The translations under genes were made by a program, and so were the position numbers. Below the pieces are notes generated by a model, which was given only the letters and a program-made list of their open reading frames with translations, made no database searches and was not told the DNA's origin. A DNA stretch of 8,736 bases from Candidatus Rokuibacteriota bacterium (GTDB lineage: Bacteria; Methylomirabilota; Methylomirabilia; Rokubacteriales; JACPHL01): the NCBI GenBank assembly GCA_016188625.1, contig JACPHL010000082.1, forward strand, positions 1-8,736. The letters are read 5' to 3'. Below, piece after piece: positions 756 through 7,777 of the stretch. Positions within the stretch are counted from its first letter, which is position 1. Every line of letters begins with the position of its first letter.

Positions 756-2562
756 ATGATCGATCCCAAGACTGCCGACCAGGCGCTCCAGACCTACGTC
801 CGGCCCCAGACCTTCCCGGTGGCGATCCGGATGCTCCGGCCCGGCGAGCCGATCCCCGAGAAGGCCAAGCGCCCGGCGCGCGACTTCAAGAAGCTCTCGA
901 TGAACTGCCAGGTCATCGACATGTCCCGGCGCTACGGCTGGATGATCGCGCTGACCCGCGAGGACCACATCTGCTCGCTGGGGATCACGGCCCTCGGACT
1001 CGACAAGCCCACCCACCTCTACGCCTCGGGCACCCTCTGCGAGGGGATGTACACCGAGACCGCCGAGGCCGGCCAGCGCTCCGAGGCGGCCGTGGACAAG
1101 TTCGCCCCGGGCGAGTACGCCTGCCTCCTGGTCTCCCCGCTCGACCGCTGCGCCTTCGAGCCGCACCTGGTGGTGGTCTACGCGAACCCGGCGCAGGTGA
1201 TGCGCCTGGCCCAGGCCGCCCTCTGGAAGCGCGGGGGGAAGCTCGCCTCCGCCTTCGGCGGGCGGATCTCCTGCTCGGAGACCATCGTCACCACCATGAA
1301 GACCGACGAGTGCCAGGTGATCCTCCCCTGCTCCGGGGACCGGATCTTCGGGCAAACCCAGGACCACGAGATGGCCTTCACCATCCCCTGGCACAAGATG
1401 GAGGAGATCATCCGGGGCCTGGAGGGGACCCATCGGGGCGGGATCCGCTACCCCATCACCCAGTTCATGGAGTACGAGGCCAAGATGCCGCCGAAGTACC
1501 TCGAGGTGAACCGGCTTTGGGACGTCCAGGCCGGCCGGGCCCAGTACACCGGGCGCGACCACGTGGTGGCGGCCTACAAGCGGAGCTTCACCGACCGGGT
1601 CCCGGTCTACCCCATCACCGCCTCCTTCGCCGGGACCCTCGACGGCCTCTCGATCGAGGAGTACTGCACGGACCCCCAGAAGGCGGTCCGGGCCCAGCTC
1701 AACTACTATCGCCAAGGAGGCCGAGGCGGTCGGGTGCGGGGTCAAGTACTCCGACTACGTCGTCCCCTCCATCGCCACCCACGTCCTCCAGGAGGACAAG
1801 GGGAAGCTGGCGAAGCTCGAGATCCCGGACCCGAGGAAGGCCGGCCGCCTCCCGGGGTTCCTGGAGATGTGCGAGGGGCTCGTGGCCGCCAAGCTCCCCA
1901 CCGCGGTGGGGGCGGTGGTGGTGGGGCCCTGGACGATCGCCATGCTCATGCGGAACCCCGAGGTGATGCTGCTCGACACCTTCGAGGACCCGGGGTTCAT
2001 CCACGAGCTGATGCGCTTCACCACCGAGTACTGCAAGGTCTTCGGGGACGCGGTCCTCGCCACCAAGATCGGACTTTCCTTCTCCGAGCCCACGGCCTCC
2101 ATCAGCCTGGTCTCCCCGGACAACTACCGGGAGTTCATCAAGCCCTACCACAGGGAGCTGGTGGAGGACTTCAAGGGCAAGAAGGTGGGGGCGACGGTCC
2201 ACCTCTGCGGGCCGACCTACCCGATCTACGAGGACCTCATCGAGGCCGGCTTCACGACCCTCTCCATCGACCTCGATCAGCAGGCCGACCCGACCCTCAA
2301 GGTGGACCAGCTCCGGCGGCTGAAGGAGGTGGCGCGGCGGCGGGTCGTGGCCATCGGCAACGTGGACGCCACCATGTTCGAGCGGGCGACCCGGGCCGAG
2401 ATCGAGGCCGAGGTCCGGCGCTGCGTCGACACCGCCGCGGCCGACTCGGCCTTCATCCTCTCCACCTCCTGCGAGATCCCCCCGCGCTCCAAGCCCGAGA
2501 TCGTCCAGTGGTTCATGGAGGCGGCCCGCGAGTACGGCCGCTACGAGCGCCTCCCGGGCTGA
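756..2562 (+). pseudogene. DUF169 domain fused to a UroD/MtaA-family corrinoid methyltransferase domain, frameshifted
   Basis: Residues 1-~255 match DUF169 (COG2043, function unknown): QTFPVAIRML near the start, conserved cysteines at 51 and 73 (EDHIC), and SGTLCEG at 91-97. A UroD-type domain starts at about 265 with TGRDHVVAAYKRSFTDRVPVYP. The first frame is sensible to about residue 318 (1709), then becomes Arg/Gly-rich nonsense up to 2582. The protein continues in the +1 frame from about 1708-1711 (AKEAEAVGCGVKYSDYVVPS) to TGA at 2560-2562. There His-Leu-Cys (2200-2208) and Cys (2470-2472, STSCEIPP) match the zinc ligands of MtaA/CmuA methyltransferases, which heme-pathway UroD lacks. Such enzymes move methyl groups to or from a corrinoid protein, and one is encoded nearby on the other strand. 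MtaA has about 12-16 more residues between the NYY and AEAVGC regions, so codons seem lost at the break. There is no intervening start, so this is a fusion and not two genes. It could be a true pseudogene or a sequencing/assembly error. Confidence 0.75.
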
Positions 2563-2585
2563 CCCGACCAGGCGGGGCATAAGAG

Positions 2586-2622
2586 ACACGCGGGCGGTCT
2601 CCGGACCGCCCGTTTCGCGTGT
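2586..2622 (+). terminator. Terminator hairpin after the DUF169-UroD gene
   Basis: A perfect 9-bp GC-rich stem (CGGGCGGTC 2591-2599 with GACCGCCCG 2604-2612) closes on a TCCG tetraloop 28 bases after the stop codon and is followed by TTT. An outer 5-bp arm (ACACG 2586-2590 with CGTGT 2618-2622) can extend it. The T run is short, so it may act partly as a barrier to convergent transcription or as an RNA 3' end. Confidence 0.6.
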
Positions 2623-2656
2623 GGGTCCTGCCGACTTTGGAGCGGGTAGGAGGCCC

Positions 2657-2674
2657 CGCCGGGGGTTCCCGGCG
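2657..2674. repeat. Intergenic hairpin
   Basis: A perfect 7-bp inverted repeat (CGCCGGG / CCCGGCG) with a GGTT loop lies in the gene-free gap between the two convergent transcription units. No T run follows on either strand. The rest of this 250-base gap, apart from the terminator and the element at 2775-2806, holds nothing I recognise; no tRNA or small-RNA fold is evident. Confidence 0.4.
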
Positions 2675-2774
2675 AGCGAATTCGGGCGAGCCGTGTGGCC
2701 GTGCGCAGCGCAGGGCAGGGCGGAGCGCGCGGGCCCGAAAGCACCTACCCAGAGGGTCGGATCTTGGCCCGCCC

Positions 2775-2806
2775 CCTCAGGGGGTTGGGGGGTCGCGCGG
2801 AGCCCC
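2775..2806. repeat. Intergenic repeat element, copy 1
   Basis: The copy contains CCTC, a G run, GGTTGGG (2783-2789), seven other bases, and GCGGAGCCCC (2797-2806). A second copy with the same two blocks and the same 7-base gap lies at 6997-7032. A small hairpin, CCCCC (2772-2776) with GGGGG (2780-2784), overlaps its left side. It lies about 60 bases downstream of the - strand shikimate kinase stop, the same relative side as copy 2 has to the HAD gene. It may be a member of a genome-wide intergenic repeat or a terminator-like structure. Confidence 0.45.
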
Positions 2807-2868
2807 GGCCGAGCCAGCTACAACGCCTCACCCACGCGACCCCCGGAAAAGCCCGTGTGGCTGGAGCG

Positions 2869-3438
2869 CTACGCGCGAGAGTCGGGCGGGCGGGCGCGCA
2901 TCCTCTCCGCGCCGGCGGAGCGCTGCCGCTCGCCGAGGAGCCGGAGGATCTGCCCGACCACCGCGTCCACCCCGAGGTGCGAGGTATCCACGCGAGCGTC
3001 GGCCCGGGCGTAGTAGGCCTCCCGCTGCCGGTAGAGGGCGAGGAGGTCCTCGCGGCTCCGCCCGGCCAGCATCGGGCGGTCGCCGCTCCGCTGGGCCCGC
3101 GCGTAGAGGCGGTCGAAGTCGCCGTCGAGCCAGACGACCGTCCCAAGCCGTTTCAGCCGCTCCATGACCCCGTCCCGGCACGGGAACCCGCCGCCCGTGG
3201 CGATGACGTGCCCGCGCTTCTCGGCGAGGAGGTCGAGGACCTCCGCCTCCAGGGCGCGGAAGTAGGTCTCCCCGCGCTCGGCGAAGATCTCGGGGATCGG
3301 CTTCCCCTCCCGCGCCACGATCATGTCGTCGGTCTCGACGAAGCAGAGGTCGAGGCGGCGGGCCAGGAGGCGGCCGACCGCCGACTTGCCCGCCCCCATG
3401 AACCCGACCAGGATGACGTTGGCGCTCCCCGACCCCAT
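2869..3438 (-). CDS. aroK: Shikimate kinase
   Basis: A 189-aa cytoplasmic enzyme that phosphorylates shikimate with ATP at the 3-hydroxyl, the fifth step of the chorismate pathway. The standard features are present in order: Walker A GFMGAGKS (residues 12-19), ETDDMI with the shikimate-binding Asp (37/38), the YFRALE arginine (61), the GGG loop (82-84), the lid arginine in RPMLAG (121), and a YRQREAYY helix (136-143) whose Arg and Tyr are typical near the adenine site. ATG at 3438 is chosen because it puts the P-loop at the usual distance from the N terminus. A GTG at 3495 would add 19 unlikely residues and overlap the preceding gene. It is the last gene of the four-gene - strand run, 49 bases after the activation-domain protein. 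aroK more often sits beside aroB, so this position is unusual. The protein looks complete and functional. Confidence 0.92.
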   Translation of the reverse strand: MGSGSANVILVGFMGAGKSAVGRLLARRLDLCFVETDDMIVAREGKPIPEIFAERGETYFRALEAEVLDLLAEKRGHVIATGGGFPCRDGVMERLKRLGTVVWLDGDFDRLYARAQRSGDRPMLAGRSREDLLALYRQREAYYARADARVDTSHLGVDAVVGQILRLLGERQRSAGAERMRARPPDSRA

Positions 3439-3487
3439 GGCCCGATCATAGCAGCCGCGGCCGGTCGAGGCCAGCCGTCGCGCCGGC

Positions 3488-4210
3488 TCAGGCACGGCCG
3501 ACGGTGACCGTCGCGGCGGCCCGGCGGAAGGGGCAGCCGGCCGCCCAGCAGCGGCGGCACTGGACGAAGTAGTGGTCCACCCGGGCGACGGGGCCGATCC
3601 CGACCGCGAAGCTGATCGTCTTGGCGGGGCTCATCACCCCGGCCGAGGAGAGGGCGATCCCGGCGGGTCCGCCCGGGCAGAGGCGGAAGAAGGCGGGCTG
3701 CTCGCTCAGGGCCCAGCCGGCGTAGCCCGGGCTGATCCGGTTCGTCACCCGGAGCCCCTCGGGGATCGCCGCCAGGCAGAGGGCGTCGTTGGCCCACTCG
3801 GCCAGGCACTCGACGGCGGCCGACCCCGCGCTCTCCAGGAGCCCCGCGTGGAGTGCCTCGCCCGCCTCCTCGAGCTCGCGGACCCTGACCTCGATCCCCT
3901 CCCCCACCGTGACCAGGCCCACCCCGAGCGCCTCGATCGGCCCCCAGTGGTGGTGGATGTCGGGGATGTGGAACTCGGTCCCGTCGGCGAGGGCGATGAG
4001 GTCCGGCTCCTGCGCGACAACCCGCGCCGCCCGGTAGACGAGGCGCGGGGCCATGAGCCGCTCGGCCTCGGCCAGGGCCTCGGCGTAGCGCGCGGCGGGC
4101 GGGGCGGGACCGGGCCGGTAGGCGTGGAAGCGGACGACCTCGTCGGGGTCGATCCGGAGGGGGATGGCGGTGAGGAGGGCGGCCTCCTCACTGAGGACCG
4201 AGCCGATCAC
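3488..4210 (-). CDS. Stand-alone methionine-synthase activation-domain protein (corrinoid reactivation)
   Basis: About 240 aa, cytoplasmic. The C-terminal half matches the MetH activation domain, which binds S-adenosylmethionine and helps reduce and remethylate cob(II)alamin. RISPGY (158-163) reproduces the R-x3-G-Y SAM motif of MetH. It is followed by ALSSAGVMSPAKTIS (186-200), equivalent to the LTESFAM...SVSG stretch. A conserved-looking central region (GLVTVGEGIEVRVREL, 98-113) precedes it. The tail has three cysteines in C-x2-C-x4-C (218, 221, 226), which could hold a metal or an iron-sulfur cluster; MetH lacks these. GTG at 4210 is the first start after the stop of the upstream gene at 4239, with a weak ribosome site. 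An open frame continues upstream to 4381, but that part is the shadow of the Hcy gene. Position between the Hcy methyltransferase and aroK, and one gene away from the corrinoid protein, supports a reactivase role for that system. Start uncertain by some codons. Confidence 0.78.
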   Translation of the reverse strand: MIGSVLSEEAALLTAIPLRIDPDEVVRFHAYRPGPAPPAARYAEALAEAERLMAPRLVYRAARVVAQEPDLIALADGTEFHIPDIHHHWGPIEALGVGLVTVGEGIEVRVRELEEAGEALHAGLLESAGSAAVECLAEWANDALCLAAIPEGLRVTNRISPGYAGWALSEQPAFFRLCPGGPAGIALSSAGVMSPAKTISFAVGIGPVARVDHYFVQCRRCWAAGCPFRRAAATVTVGRA

Positions 4211-4238
4211 CGGCCAGACGCCGGACGACGGGCGCCGG

Positions 4239-5144
4239 CTACCGGCCGCGCCGGGCCCGCACGACCTCGGCGATCCGGCGGATGTGCTCGGGGGTGGAGC
4301 CGCAGCAGGCCCCCACGATGTTGGCGCCGGCATCGAGGAGCCCGGGGTAGTCCCGCACCATCTCCTCGGGGCCCAGCTCATAGGTGACCCGGCCGCCCCG
4401 GGTGATCGGCAGCCCGGCGTTGGGGTAGGCGATGAGCGCGACCGGGGTGACGGCTCGCATCTCGCGGATGATCACGATGGCCCGGTCCGGCCCCCGGCCG
4501 CAGTTCATTCCCACCACGTCCGCGCCCCCCGCCAGGAGCTTCTGCGCCACCTCGGGCGGGCTCTCGCCCCACATGGTCCGGTCCCGGTCGTGGAGCTCCT
4601 CGTACTGGAAGAACATGGTCGTCATGACCGGGAGGTCGGTCACCGCCTTGCAGGCGCGGATCGCGGCCAGGGCCTCCTCGGGGTACATCATGGTCTCCAC
4701 CGCGAAGAGGTCCACGCCGCCCTCGGCCAGGGCCTCGGCCTGCTCCCGGAAGTTCTCGAACAGCTCGGCCTCGGTCACGTCCCCGTAGGGCTCGACGATG
4801 TGGCTGGTGGGGCCGATGGAGCCGGCGACGTAGCCGCCCGGGGGGCAGACCTCGCGGGCGAGCCGGACGCCCTTCTCGTTCAGCTCACGGGTCCGGTCGC
4901 CGAGCTTGTAGGCGTCGAGCTTGAGGCGGGTCCCGCCGAAGGTGTTGGTCTCGACGAAATCGGAGCCGGCCTCGAAGTAGGCCCGATGGATCCCGCGGAC
5001 GATGTCGGGGCGGGTGTCGTTCCAGAGCTCGGGGCACGCCCCGTCCACGAGCCCGGCGGCGAAGAGCATGGTCCCGTAGCCGCCGTCGAAGACGAGGGGC
5101 TCGGCCTGGACCCGCCGGATCAGCTCCCACCCGCGCCCGGGCAT
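4239..5144 (-). CDS. Homocysteine S-methyltransferase (MetH Hcy-domain type)
   Basis: A complete 301-aa single-domain zinc enzyme of the Hcy/BHMT family, expected to transfer a methyl group to homocysteine, giving methionine. Motifs follow the MetH N-terminal module: DGGYGTM (20-26), FVETNTFGG (63-71), GSIGPT (108-113), GMNC (212-215) and GACCGSTPEHI (278-288). The zinc ligands would be Cys215, Cys280 and Cys281. No cobalamin or folate domain is attached. ATG at 5144 is seven bases after the corrinoid protein's stop; the GAGG overlapping that stop is a modest ribosome site. Its neighbours make a methylcorrinoid protein the likely methyl donor, rather than betaine, S-methylmethionine or free methylcobalamin. 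The acceptor is inferred from family; another thiol is possible. Confidence 0.85.
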   Translation of the reverse strand: MPGRGWELIRRVQAEPLVFDGGYGTMLFAAGLVDGACPELWNDTRPDIVRGIHRAYFEAGSDFVETNTFGGTRLKLDAYKLGDRTRELNEKGVRLAREVCPPGGYVAGSIGPTSHIVEPYGDVTEAELFENFREQAEALAEGGVDLFAVETMMYPEEALAAIRACKAVTDLPVMTTMFFQYEELHDRDRTMWGESPPEVAQKLLAGGADVVGMNCGRGPDRAIVIIREMRAVTPVALIAYPNAGLPITRGGRVTYELGPEEMVRDYPGLLDAGANIVGACCGSTPEHIRRIAEVVRARRGR

Positions 5145-5151
5145 GCGCGCC

Positions 5152-5820
5152 TCAGGGCCTGGCCGGGGCCGCCGCCCCCGCCAGCTCCTTGGCCTTCACC
5201 ACCGCCAGGGTCGAGTCCTTGGCGTAGCCGTCGGCCCCGATCTCGTCGGCGAAGGCCTGGGTCACCGGGGCCCCGCCCACCATCACCCGGACCCGGTCGC
5301 GGAACCCGGCGGCGGCGAGGGCGTCGATGGTCCGCTTCATCGCCGGCATGGTGGTGGTCATCAGGGCCGAGATCCCCACGATGGTGGCGTGGTGCTCCCG
5401 GACCGCCTGGACGAAGGTCTCCGGGGCCACGTCGCGCCCGAGGTTGAACACCTTGAAGCCGGCCCCCTCGAGCATCATGGCCACCAGGTTCTTGCCGATG
5501 TCGTGGAGGTCGCCCTGCGCCGTGCCGATGACCACGGTCCCGAGGTACCCCGAGGTCGCCGACGCCGTGATGAGCGGCTTCAGGAGGTCGAGCCCCGCGT
5601 ACATGGCGCGGGCCGAGAGGAGGACCTGGGGGACGTAGTACTCGTTCCGCCGGAACTTCTCCCCCACCACGTCCATCCCGGGGATCAGCCCCTTGAAGAT
5701 GATCGCCTTGGGGTCGAGCCCCTGGTCGAGCCCCTCCCGGGTCATCCGGCCGACCGTCTCCCGGTCGCCCAGGATGAGGGCCCGGGCCATCAGGGGATAC
5801 GGGAAATCGTTGTCGGACAT
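5152..5820 (-). CDS. Corrinoid-binding methyltransferase protein (MtaC/MtbC/MtgC type)
   Basis: A 222-aa soluble methyl carrier with the two-part fold of MetH module 3 and methanogen MtaC/MtbC. The N-terminal helical cap (about 8-90) contains GLIPGMDVVGEKF and YYVPQVLLSARAM. The Rossmann B12 domain follows, with TAQGDLHDIGKNL, where D104-x-H106-x2-G109 supplies the lower axial His to cobalt. It also has SALMTTTM (151-158) and VGGAPV (181-186). The protein shuttles a methyl group as methyl-Co(III) between a methyltransferase and an acceptor enzyme. Full length for the family. It heads the - strand run: the Hcy methyltransferase begins seven bases after its stop. The promoter at 5840-5868 lies just upstream. 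Only 52 bases separate this ATG from the preceding gene's stop, so a cobalamin riboswitch cannot fit there. The substrate cannot be read from the sequence. Confidence 0.9.
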   Translation of the reverse strand: MSDNDFPYPLMARALILGDRETVGRMTREGLDQGLDPKAIIFKGLIPGMDVVGEKFRRNEYYVPQVLLSARAMYAGLDLLKPLITASATSGYLGTVVIGTAQGDLHDIGKNLVAMMLEGAGFKVFNLGRDVAPETFVQAVREHHATIVGISALMTTTMPAMKRTIDALAAAGFRDRVRVMVGGAPVTQAFADEIGADGYAKDSTLAVVKAKELAGAAAPARP

Positions 5821-5872: not shown

Positions 5873-6826
5873 TCAGCGGTCGGGAACCCGCTGGTGGGCG
5901 AAGAGGTCCGGCCGGTCGGCCGTCAGCACGCAGTGCTCCGTCGCGGGGCAGCCCTCCGGGCACGGCTCGGGGTGGATGACCACGTCCGAGTGGGAAACGC
6001 CCGCCTCGATCTCCTTCTCGATGTGATCCACCAGGTCGTGGGTCTCGCCCAGGGGGAGGTGGCGGCAGAGGACGACCGAGAAGTCGATGAGGCGCCGGGA
6101 GCCGGAGCGCCGGGTGCGGAGGTCGTGGTAGGAGAGGACGAAGGCGTGGCGCCGGATGATCCGGTCGATCTCGCCCTGCTCGTGGGCCGGGAGGGCCGAG
6201 TCCATGAGATCCCAGATGGAGCGACGGGCGATCTTGCCCGCGGCGCCGAGGATGAGCCCCCCGACCCCGATGGCGATGAGGGGATCGAAGAGGGGGATCC
6301 CCGTCAACCGGATGAGGACGAGAGCCGCCAGCACCCCGAGGCCGGTCCAGATATCCGTGGCGTAGTGGTAGGAGTCGGCCAGGAGGATCACCGAGTCGGT
6401 CTCCCGGGCGGTCCGGCGCAGGCGCCAGGCGATGAGCCAGCTCCCCCCGATGGAGACCAGGATGACCGCGATCCCCCAGTCCACATGCTGGATCGGGACG
6501 CCCCGGAGGAGCCGGCGGATCGCCTCGGCGATGACCCAGCCGCCCATCACGCCGATGACGCCGGCCTGGAGGAGCCCGGCCAGGTTCTCGACCTTCCCGT
6601 GGCCGTAGGGGTGGCCCGCGTCGGCGGGCGACTCGGCGAGCCGGATGGAGAAGAGGTTGACGGTGGAGATGAGGACGTCCACCAGGGAGTCGATGGCCGC
6701 GGAGATGAGGCCGATGGAGCCGATGAGGAGCCCGGTGACGAGCTTGAGGAGGCCGAGGACGGCGGCGCCCGCGATGGCGAATCGCGCGGCGCGCTCCTTG
6801 CGGATCGCCATCGGCTCGGCGCCCAT
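5873..6826 (-). CDS. Cation diffusion facilitator (FieF/YiiP-like metal efflux transporter)
   Basis: A 317-aa inner-membrane divalent-metal/proton antiporter of the CDF family. About six hydrophobic segments span residues 14-200. The transport site matches YiiP exactly in pattern: DSLVD (D46, D50) in the second segment and HYATD (H154, D158) in the fifth, which in YiiP bind Zn2+. HPYGHGKVE (72-80) is the usual cytoplasmic loop signature. A cytoplasmic ferredoxin-like domain (about 210-290) with HDLRTRRSGSRRLIDF follows. The last 30 residues are unusual: cysteines at 289, 293 and 299 (C-x3-C-x5-C) beside histidines, a possible extra metal site. ATG at 6826 is chosen; an in-frame ATG six codons... 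five residues later is also possible. It is separated from the downstream corrinoid operon by that operon's own promoter. Zn or Fe is the likeliest cargo, but this is not proven. Confidence 0.9.
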   Translation of the reverse strand: MGAEPMAIRKERAARFAIAGAAVLGLLKLVTGLLIGSIGLISAAIDSLVDVLISTVNLFSIRLAESPADAGHPYGHGKVENLAGLLQAGVIGVMGGWVIAEAIRRLLRGVPIQHVDWGIAVILVSIGGSWLIAWRLRRTARETDSVILLADSYHYATDIWTGLGVLAALVLIRLTGIPLFDPLIAIGVGGLILGAAGKIARRSIWDLMDSALPAHEQGEIDRIIRRHAFVLSYHDLRTRRSGSRRLIDFSVVLCRHLPLGETHDLVDHIEKEIEAGVSHSDVVIHPEPCPEGCPATEHCVLTADRPDLFAHQRVPDR

Positions 6827-7043: not shown

Positions 7044-7777
7044 TTACTCGGCCTCCCAGCGGGCGAGCAGCTCCTCGAAGGAGGCGACCCGGAGATGGGG
7101 GGTCAGGGGCCCCGGCGAGGCCTCCGGGGGGGCGAGCCAGATCGTCACCATCCCCGCCTCGAGCCCGCCCCGGATGTCGGTGCCCAGGCTGTCCCCCACC
7201 ATCGCGGCCTCGGCCGGTCGGCAGCTGAGCCGCGCGAGCGCCTGCTCGAAGATCGGCCGAAACGGCTTGCCGACGACCAGGGGCCGTGTCCCGCCCGCCA
7301 CCGCGATCGCCTCGGCGAGGGCCCCACAGCCCGGCTCGAAGGCGCCGCCCTCGAGCGGGAGCCGCGGGTCGAGGCTCACGGCGACGAACCGGCGGGGTCG
7401 TTCCCCACCGCGACCACCCGCGCCTCGGCCCACGCCTCGGGGGCCACCACGGTGTGCCCGGCGGCCCTCAGGACCTCCGCCAGCTCCTCGGTCCCGAGGG
7501 GAAGGACCGCGCTCGGCCCGAACCCCCGCCGGATCGCCTCCCCGAGCAGCTCGAGGGCGGTGACGACCTCACGAGGCGCGGCGGGGACGCCGAGCCGGGT
7601 CAGCTTCAGGGCGAGCTGCTCGGCCCGCTCGCGGGAGTTGTTGGTGAGGAACACGACCGGCCGCCCCGCGCGGCGGAGCGCGTCGAGGAAGACCCGGACG
7701 CCGGGCAGGAGGCGCTCCCCCGCCCAGACCGAGCCGTCGAGGTCGAGGGCGAAGCCCCGGAGGTCCCGGAGCCTCAC
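7044..7777 (-). pseudogene. HAD-IIA (NagD/AraL-like) phosphatase, frameshifted with apparent missing codons
   Basis: A cytoplasmic HAD-family sugar-phosphate or nucleotide phosphatase with all four HAD motifs, split over two frames. The first frame (GTG at 7777) gives DLDGSVWAG with catalytic D12 and D14, FLTNNSR (43-49), and VVAVGND (121-127). It then reads PAGSSP and stops at 7376. From about 7391 a second frame continues RFVAVSLDPRLP, then VVGKPF (Lys of motif III), then MVGDSLGTD (acidic motif IV), to TAA at 7044. In E. coli NagD about 20-25 residues separate the equivalents of VVG and FIATN; here only two or three remain. So about 20 codons and the frame seem lost together near 7390-7397. 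The start lies 64 bases after the stop of the metallo-beta-lactamase-fold gene, probably in one operon. The substrate is unknown. A sequencing or assembly error is possible. Confidence 0.8.

Follow-up and report, generated by a model that had tools for sequence, protein, structure and literature searches.

Methionine synthase is near-universal. Its known forms take the methyl group from folate, except for the core synthases, which obtain it from corrinoid proteins that belong to special pathways. Here we ask where a putative homocysteine-methylating system obtains its methyl group when its corrinoid carrier, homocysteine enzyme and reactivation domain are encoded side by side as separate genes and the pterin domain is missing. 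The question is raised by contig C115 of a 2.6-Mb, 84% complete metagenome-assembled genome (MAG) of Rokubacteria (Methylomirabilota); the whole contig, 8736 bp, is the stretch analyzed here and is called the window. Three adjacent minus-strand genes (the trio) face a convergent gene for a UroD-family methyltransferase. We judge the chances about even that the trio is a split, pterin-less, corrinoid-dependent homocysteine methyltransferase charged by another methyltransferase, a reading drawn from sequence comparison. The four genes are:

5152..5820, minus strand: corrinoid (B12) carrier, 222 amino acids (aa), MtgC/MtbC-like (pyl_corrinoid family; PF02310 and PF02607)
4239..5144, minus strand: homocysteine S-methyltransferase (HCY), 301 aa, zinc site C215/C280/C281 (PF02574)
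3488..4210, minus strand: stand-alone MetH-type reactivation domain (ACT), which would bind S-adenosylmethionine (AdoMet), 240 aa, GTG start (profile and fold match to 1j6r)
756..2562, plus strand: fusion methyltransferase DUF169::UroD of the MtaA/CmuA superfamily, convergent with the trio, its frame broken here (DUF169 E 2.2e-55, URO-D E 1.8e-45)

Genomes surveyed

As the window is a whole contig, the neighbourhood was judged in relatives only, that is, in Candidatus Rokubacteria/Rokuibacteriota and other Methylomirabilota from genome collections. These relatives were gathered by a scan with HCY as query; the genome-collection scan queried with the reactivation domain gave no match. The phylum survey comprised 94 genomes (95 for the reactivation-gene count), and statements on the source genome are based on family searches.

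Three MetH-type modules as separate genes

HCY matches S-methyl_trans (PF02574) with E 2.2e-74, and its zinc cysteines C215, C280 and C281 are invariant across 10 relatives, which places it in this family. It is 36% identical to Bmt/MtgE of Sinorhizobium meliloti. The carrier combines a helical cap (B12-binding_2, PF02607, E 1.7e-22) with a B12 Rossmann domain (B12-binding, PF02310, E 1.1e-29) and has the D-x-H-x-x-G signature of MtgC/MtbC-kind proteins, here as DLHDIGK (D-x-H-D-x-G), a motif that is invariant in relatives. It is 46% identical to S. meliloti MtgC, scores 212 bits against TIGR02370 (cut-off 215) and is 75-83% identical within the class. Most relatives of both proteins in the order are 72-86% identical to those of the window, which points to strong constraint. 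We infer from these sequences that homocysteine is the methyl acceptor of the trio.

The third protein by itself has no Pfam or NCBIfam match. Its family profile matches Thermotoga TM0269 (1j6r) with E 2e-10, and the proteins of its relatives exceed the PF02965 cut-off. Aligned to TM0269 over 191 residues, its AlphaFold model (pLDDT 90) scores Z 18.7; MetH reactivation domains give Z 15-17.5 (Thermus MetH 17.5), and the next unrelated chains remain below 6. By profile and predicted fold, 3488-4210 is therefore a MetH reactivation domain of the PF02965 family. The reactivation proteins of the trio carry a C-terminal tail, C-x2-C-x4-C-x2-R (3491-3560 in the window), that is conserved in alignments. 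It is also present on a Bacillota homologue (L164, 9325-10017), is absent from the second paralogue type and is possibly a metal or Fe-S site.

The intergenic gaps within the trio are 7 and 28 nt, so the trio fits an operon. Against the MetH model TIGR02082, it reaches 194.6 bits with a cut-off of 1010.9; it is not a MetH, its modules being separate genes and the pterin module missing. A preliminary description of this DNA, made from its letters, had recognized three MetH modules as separate adjacent minus-strand genes without a pterin module. Profile, motif and fold evidence confirm the modules, and the 8736-bp window holds no pterin domain. That description had also named a pterin gene in the same operon just outside the window as a finding that would refute its reading. 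When relatives were searched by tblastn with the pterin protein of another contig of the source genome (C341, see below), none was found beside the Rokubacteria trio within the loci fetched.

The convergent DUF169::UroD gene

The convergent gene encodes DUF169 fused to a UroD-fold methyltransferase and is a single intact open reading frame (ORF) of ~615 aa in relatives; in the window copy, despite the broken frame, both halves still align without stops at 76-83% identity. The UroD half scores best with the PRK06252/MtaA/MtbA/CmuA models, below their curated cut-offs. Its His-x-Cys...Cys triad, which we take to correspond to the zinc ligands of MtaA, aligns with solved MtaA, is intact in the window copy and is conserved in 7/7 fusion proteins and 3 free paralogues compared. 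The AlphaFold model of the fusion (pLDDT 38.7) is unusable and yields no fold for DUF169. Titles and abstracts on DUF169 give no function for it, and in plasmid records UroD and DUF169 occur as separate proteins, never as the fusion. The preliminary description had placed an MtaA-like UroD gene head-on to the trio. Its orientation, its UroD-family membership and its linkage hold, whereas the protein is a fusion rather than a lone UroD protein and its frame is broken here.

Methoxyaromatics or haloalkanes serve UroD enzymes as methyl donors for corrinoids (PMC13222342), and the UroD enzymes of mlp clusters are proposed to exchange methyl groups with thiols and selenols (PMC10418091). By linkage and family alone, DUF169::UroD is the leading candidate for charging the carrier.

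Two further kinds of UroD genes were seen. In several Rokubacteria, an apparent LLM-class (luciferase-like) oxidoreductase gene adjoins a free-standing UroD paralogue (L181, 9188-10333; L176, 9211-10302); these paralogues share 76-79% identity with the UroD part of the fusion. The Thiodictyon plasmid pTs417 (L205, 5320-8653) has a run of corrinoid protein, UroD and ASKHA activase with no annotated pterin gene within a 13-kb stretch, another pterin-less UroD-corrinoid unit.

Conservation and linkage

In raw counts, HCY occurs in 65/94 genomes and DUF169::UroD in 66/94; the reactivation gene is present in 61/95, although a few of these genomes contribute second-type paralogues to the count. Once two HCY copies of another clade and two DUF169-only hits are removed, 61 genomes have both HCY and the fusion, 2 only HCY, 3 only the fusion and 28 neither, so that 89/94 are concordant and 5 discordant. 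Nearly every locus long enough to show it has the carrier and HCY genes side by side, as a rule with ACT and the shikimate kinase gene aroK after them, and within the order an Hcy::MTHFR fusion is often found downstream of the trio and AroK. Where HCY/ACT and DUF169::UroD lie on one contig, which is the case in 40 genomes, they are convergent in 40/40, at a distance of 0.9-18.3 kb (median 10.5 kb). In the distant G018 family (L071), the distance between trio and fusion is 3.4 kb, and the locus has no further gene in common with the order. Conservation of the neighbourhood in relatives had been set as a test beforehand in the preliminary description, and the locus withstands it.

One could still hold that DUF169::UroD is unrelated to the trio, that the neighbourhood is inherited synteny and that the corrinoid is charged by another UroD or a PF01717 paralogue. 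The varying intervening genes along with the wide spacing on opposite strands would fit such an account, as would the close free UroD paralogues and the many PF01717 paralogues. We nevertheless deem it very unlikely, since the link persists between families that share nothing else there and presence and absence agree in nearly all genomes.

Methionine routes and pterin domains in relatives

Among the 63 trio genomes, MetH is present in 44 (some partial at contig ends), split MetE in 11, both in 0 and neither in 8. The trio is thus usually an addition to another methionine synthase. A MetH taken from one of the trio genomes comprises the full four modules. In the phylum as a whole, a strong MetE C-half and a full MetH hardly ever occur together, G010 being the sole exception.

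Four near-complete genomes, G018 (96% complete), G016 (95%, with 9% contamination), G080 (94%) and G003 (93%), carry the trio without MetH or split MetE. A fifth, G084 (92%), likewise lacks both but has a second cluster with a pterin gene. In the former four, the sole PF00809 gene passes the cut-off for dihydropteroate synthase (DHPS) or has a FolP signature; MTHFR is present in all four. The preliminary description had asked whether relatives also carry MetH, MetE or a stand-alone pterin domain. Most do have one of the two synthases, but these four have neither MetH nor split MetE, and FolP as their sole pterin domain. Its proposal of a corrinoid:homocysteine system without MetH-type pterin entry is, on gene content, well supported. 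The four MetH-less genomes are the strongest evidence that the trio can do without a pterin domain as the entry point for its methyl group, within the limits set by MAG fragmentation. The trio may supplement MetH or split MetE in most Rokubacteria and may be the main methionine synthase in the G016/G018, G080 and G003 lineages.

Three candidates were rejected. A hidden MtgD was sought among the stand-alone PF00809 genes of MetH-less relatives; those examined are DHPS/FolP by the TIGR01496 cut-off or by ftsH-folP-cdaA synteny. A possible MetH fragment in G018 (contigs C18/C108) consists of Hcy fragments that belong to the Hcy::MTHFR type. Finally, MtgB-type charging would involve MttB enzymes, and the MttB family (PF06253) has 0 members in the source genome and occurs in 3/94 genomes of the phylum; its absence from 91/94 makes a betaine-type donor enzyme unlikely.

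A second cluster and the folate alternative

The source genome (G000) has MTHFR and a split MetE (L182, contig C64, 8568-12521), in which the N-half (PF08267) adjoins the C-half and is followed by an Hcy::MTHFR fusion. It also has a second cluster on contig C341 (L075, 348-6076), in the order MTHFR-pterin-Hcy-B12-UroD, and a second reactivation protein on contig C211. A relative has the complete cluster, ACT2-MTHFR-pterin-Hcy-UroD-B12-RACo (L186, 8185-16566). By gene content, this second cluster resembles a full UroD-type demethylation system in which folate and homocysteine would both be acceptors. With its pterin protein, which is 34% identical to S. meliloti MtgD, the source cell is not folate-free. 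The term 'folate-free' used in the preliminary description therefore fails for the source genome and should be limited to the trio. In the source genome the trio could conceivably draw on the C341 pterin protein in trans, an option that most relatives do not have.

This leads to the alternative that the trio works on methyltetrahydrofolate (CH3-THF) like any ordinary split methionine synthase, its pterin step being supplied in trans by MetH, by the C341 protein or by an unrecognized folate enzyme such as Hcy::MTHFR. The stand-alone pterin methyltransferase on C341 suits this alternative, and so does MTHFR, which most of the order encodes just after the trio and AroK as part of a fusion with a second Hcy domain. 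However, we know of no MTHFR that methylates corrinoids, the near-complete MetH-less trio genomes have no pterin domain except FolP, and the trio is retained beside MetH in 44 genomes. There is precedent for a dispersed arrangement: the pterin gene of Phaeobacter inhibens is likewise unlinked to its other split-synthase genes (PMC5764234). Taken together, we regard the CH3-THF alternative as unlikely.

The Hcy-domain tree bears on the origin of the trio. In it, the HCY proteins of the trio group in a supported clade of their own, separate from MetH, Hcy::MTHFR and cluster II (the C341 copy); S. meliloti MtgE sits on a long branch of unsure placement. The closest HCY proteins outside the phylum, L138 and L139, fall within the trio clade and sit in clusters with a pterin gene (ACT2-RACo-HCY-B12-pterin), which also speaks for CH3-THF as donor. 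Judging from their position, a complete split system is plausibly either the ancestor of the pterin-less trio or a parallel to it, and the tree is compatible with both.

Proposed mechanism

As a split homocysteine methyltransferase charged from elsewhere, the trio would work as follows. The corrinoid protein (5152-5820) would carry the methyl group on cobalt, and the zinc enzyme (4239-5144) would transfer it to homocysteine to give methionine. The reactivation domain (3488-4210) would rescue Co(II) formed by accidental oxidation through AdoMet-dependent reductive methylation as in MetH, a part that TM0269 probably plays for Thermotoga MetH. The corrinoid would be charged by another methyltransferase instead of a MetH-type pterin domain, DUF169::UroD being the best candidate.

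A more specific version, which we hold to be doubtful, is that DUF169::UroD, carrier, Hcy enzyme and reactivation domain form a four-part methionine synthase in which a UroD fold replaces the pterin module. The corrinoid would be loaded from a non-folate donor, or else from CH3-THF, the donor with which MetE, a member of the same superfamily, methylates homocysteine, and the set would be the sole methionine synthase in some Methylomirabilota lineages.

Several observations weigh against the mechanism proposed at the start of this section. The linkage is phylogenetically clustered, so that the 40/40 convergent cases may represent one ancestral arrangement, and trio and fusion, which lie on opposite strands, are typically separated by ~10 kb. 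No reactivation domain was seen in some relatives that keep the carrier and HCY (L112, L118, L193). MTHFR occurs in 15/15 trio genomes tested, often beside the trio as Hcy::MTHFR, which hints at a folate link and equally favours CH3-THF as donor. G080 keeps two weaker PF01717 paralogues (G018, G016 and G003 have none), and genes counted as absent in fragmented MAGs may be unassembled. Finally, the frame of the fusion in the window is broken near 1710, with ~41 nt lost relative to relatives. A HAD gene at 7044-7777 is damaged as well, and two damaged ORFs in one 8.7-kb contig suggest assembly error or decay; for the fusion, assembly error is plausible, with decay as the alternative.

A conserved pterin-less set occurs across an uncultured soil and groundwater order, without a recognized folate partner in several near-complete genomes. 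If the proposal is true, it implies an unrecognized methyl source for methionine and the first biochemical role for a DUF169 protein. A further caution is that methionine prototrophy in MAGs can be misjudged when MetH and MetE are the only genes counted.

Other genes in the window

The remaining genes of the window are:

2869..3495, minus strand: shikimate kinase AroK (PF01202, E 4.2e-43), with an in-frame ATG near 3438
5873..6826, minus strand: CDF cation-efflux transporter, co-directional with and upstream of the trio (PF01545 and PF16916)
7044..7777, minus strand: HAD-family hydrolase gene, split over two frames (ORF reading)

AroK sits between the trio and the convergent DUF169::UroD gene and probably has no part in methyl transfer. 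Outside the window, the CDF transporter is linked to the trio in a single genome, which belongs to another family (G093, L052). An Rfam scan of the window gave no match, and hence no cobalamin or SAM riboswitch at the gathering threshold.

Comparison with known systems

Modular split methionine synthases are known, namely MtgBCDE (PMC12478193) and that of P. inhibens (PMC5764234). MtgBCDE is the split methionine synthase/glycine betaine demethylase of Ruegeria, Phaeobacter and Sinorhizobium, and MtgC and MtgE are genetically proven split methionine synthase proteins (PMC12478193, PMC5764234). The trio resembles it in its separate corrinoid and homocysteine proteins, which are homologous to MtgC and MtgE. 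It differs in having neither an adjacent MtgD pterin protein nor an MttB-type MtgB, in using a MetH-type reactivation domain where MtgBCDE has RACo/RamA and DUF1638, in the separate clade of its HCY and in DUF169::UroD as the linked methyltransferase. RACo-type activases gave no match in the relatives' loci.

UroD-corrinoid clusters without a pterin gene are also known, as Type 1 mlp gene clusters (PMC10418091). They share with the present locus MtaA-like UroD protein(s), a corrinoid protein, an activator and the lack of a nearby tetrahydrofolate methyltransferase. On this model, the trio and DUF169::UroD could act in S- or Se-methyl salvage, with homocysteine or another thiol receiving, by way of the corrinoid, the methyl group of a methylthioether or methylselenide; mlp clusters are proposed to act in this manner on methyl-S/Se compounds (PMC10418091). 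The MtaA/MtbA/CmuA affinity of the UroD half and its thiol-type zinc triad agree with such a role, as does an MBL-rhodanese sulfur gene (persulfide-dioxygenase-like) lying directly upstream of the B12 gene in about one third of relatives (e.g. L039, 6321-7724). By definition, however, a Type 1 mlp cluster has at least two Mlps, a corrinoid protein and the Ram/RACE activase encoded co-directionally, with no THF methylase within 20 kb, and such clusters occur in anaerobes. The locus described here falls outside this definition, with one DUF169-fused UroD, convergent and distant, a homocysteine methyltransferase and a MetH-type activator, which makes salvage distinctly unlikely in our view.

Canonical MetH, and Thermotoga MetH with TM0269, have Hcy, B12 and reactivation modules homologous to the trio, whose modules are all separate genes, lack the pterin module and coexist with MetH in the majority of trio genomes. 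Core (folate-independent) methionine synthases, MesA-D, have been described (PMC7857596). MesA-C likewise methylate homocysteine from a corrinoid protein without a folate-binding domain (PMC7857596), but the catalytic domains of MesA-D are of the MetE family, whereas the Hcy domain of the trio is of the MetH type and has a carrier and a reactivator of its own. In MtvB, OdmB, VdmB, CdmBCA and CmuAB, a UroD-superfamily methyltransferase charges a corrinoid protein (PMC13222342), as suggested here for DUF169::UroD; there, a second methyltransferase passes the methyl group to tetrahydrofolate, while the corresponding enzyme of the trio is a homocysteine methyltransferase. The preliminary description had set the arrangement apart from the textbook MetH, MetE, MtaABC and MtgBC systems, and this is borne out, the locus being neither a MetH, a Type 1 mlp cluster nor a set with an MttB-type donor enzyme. 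The cluster is not a textbook arrangement, yet it is assembled from known kinds of parts.

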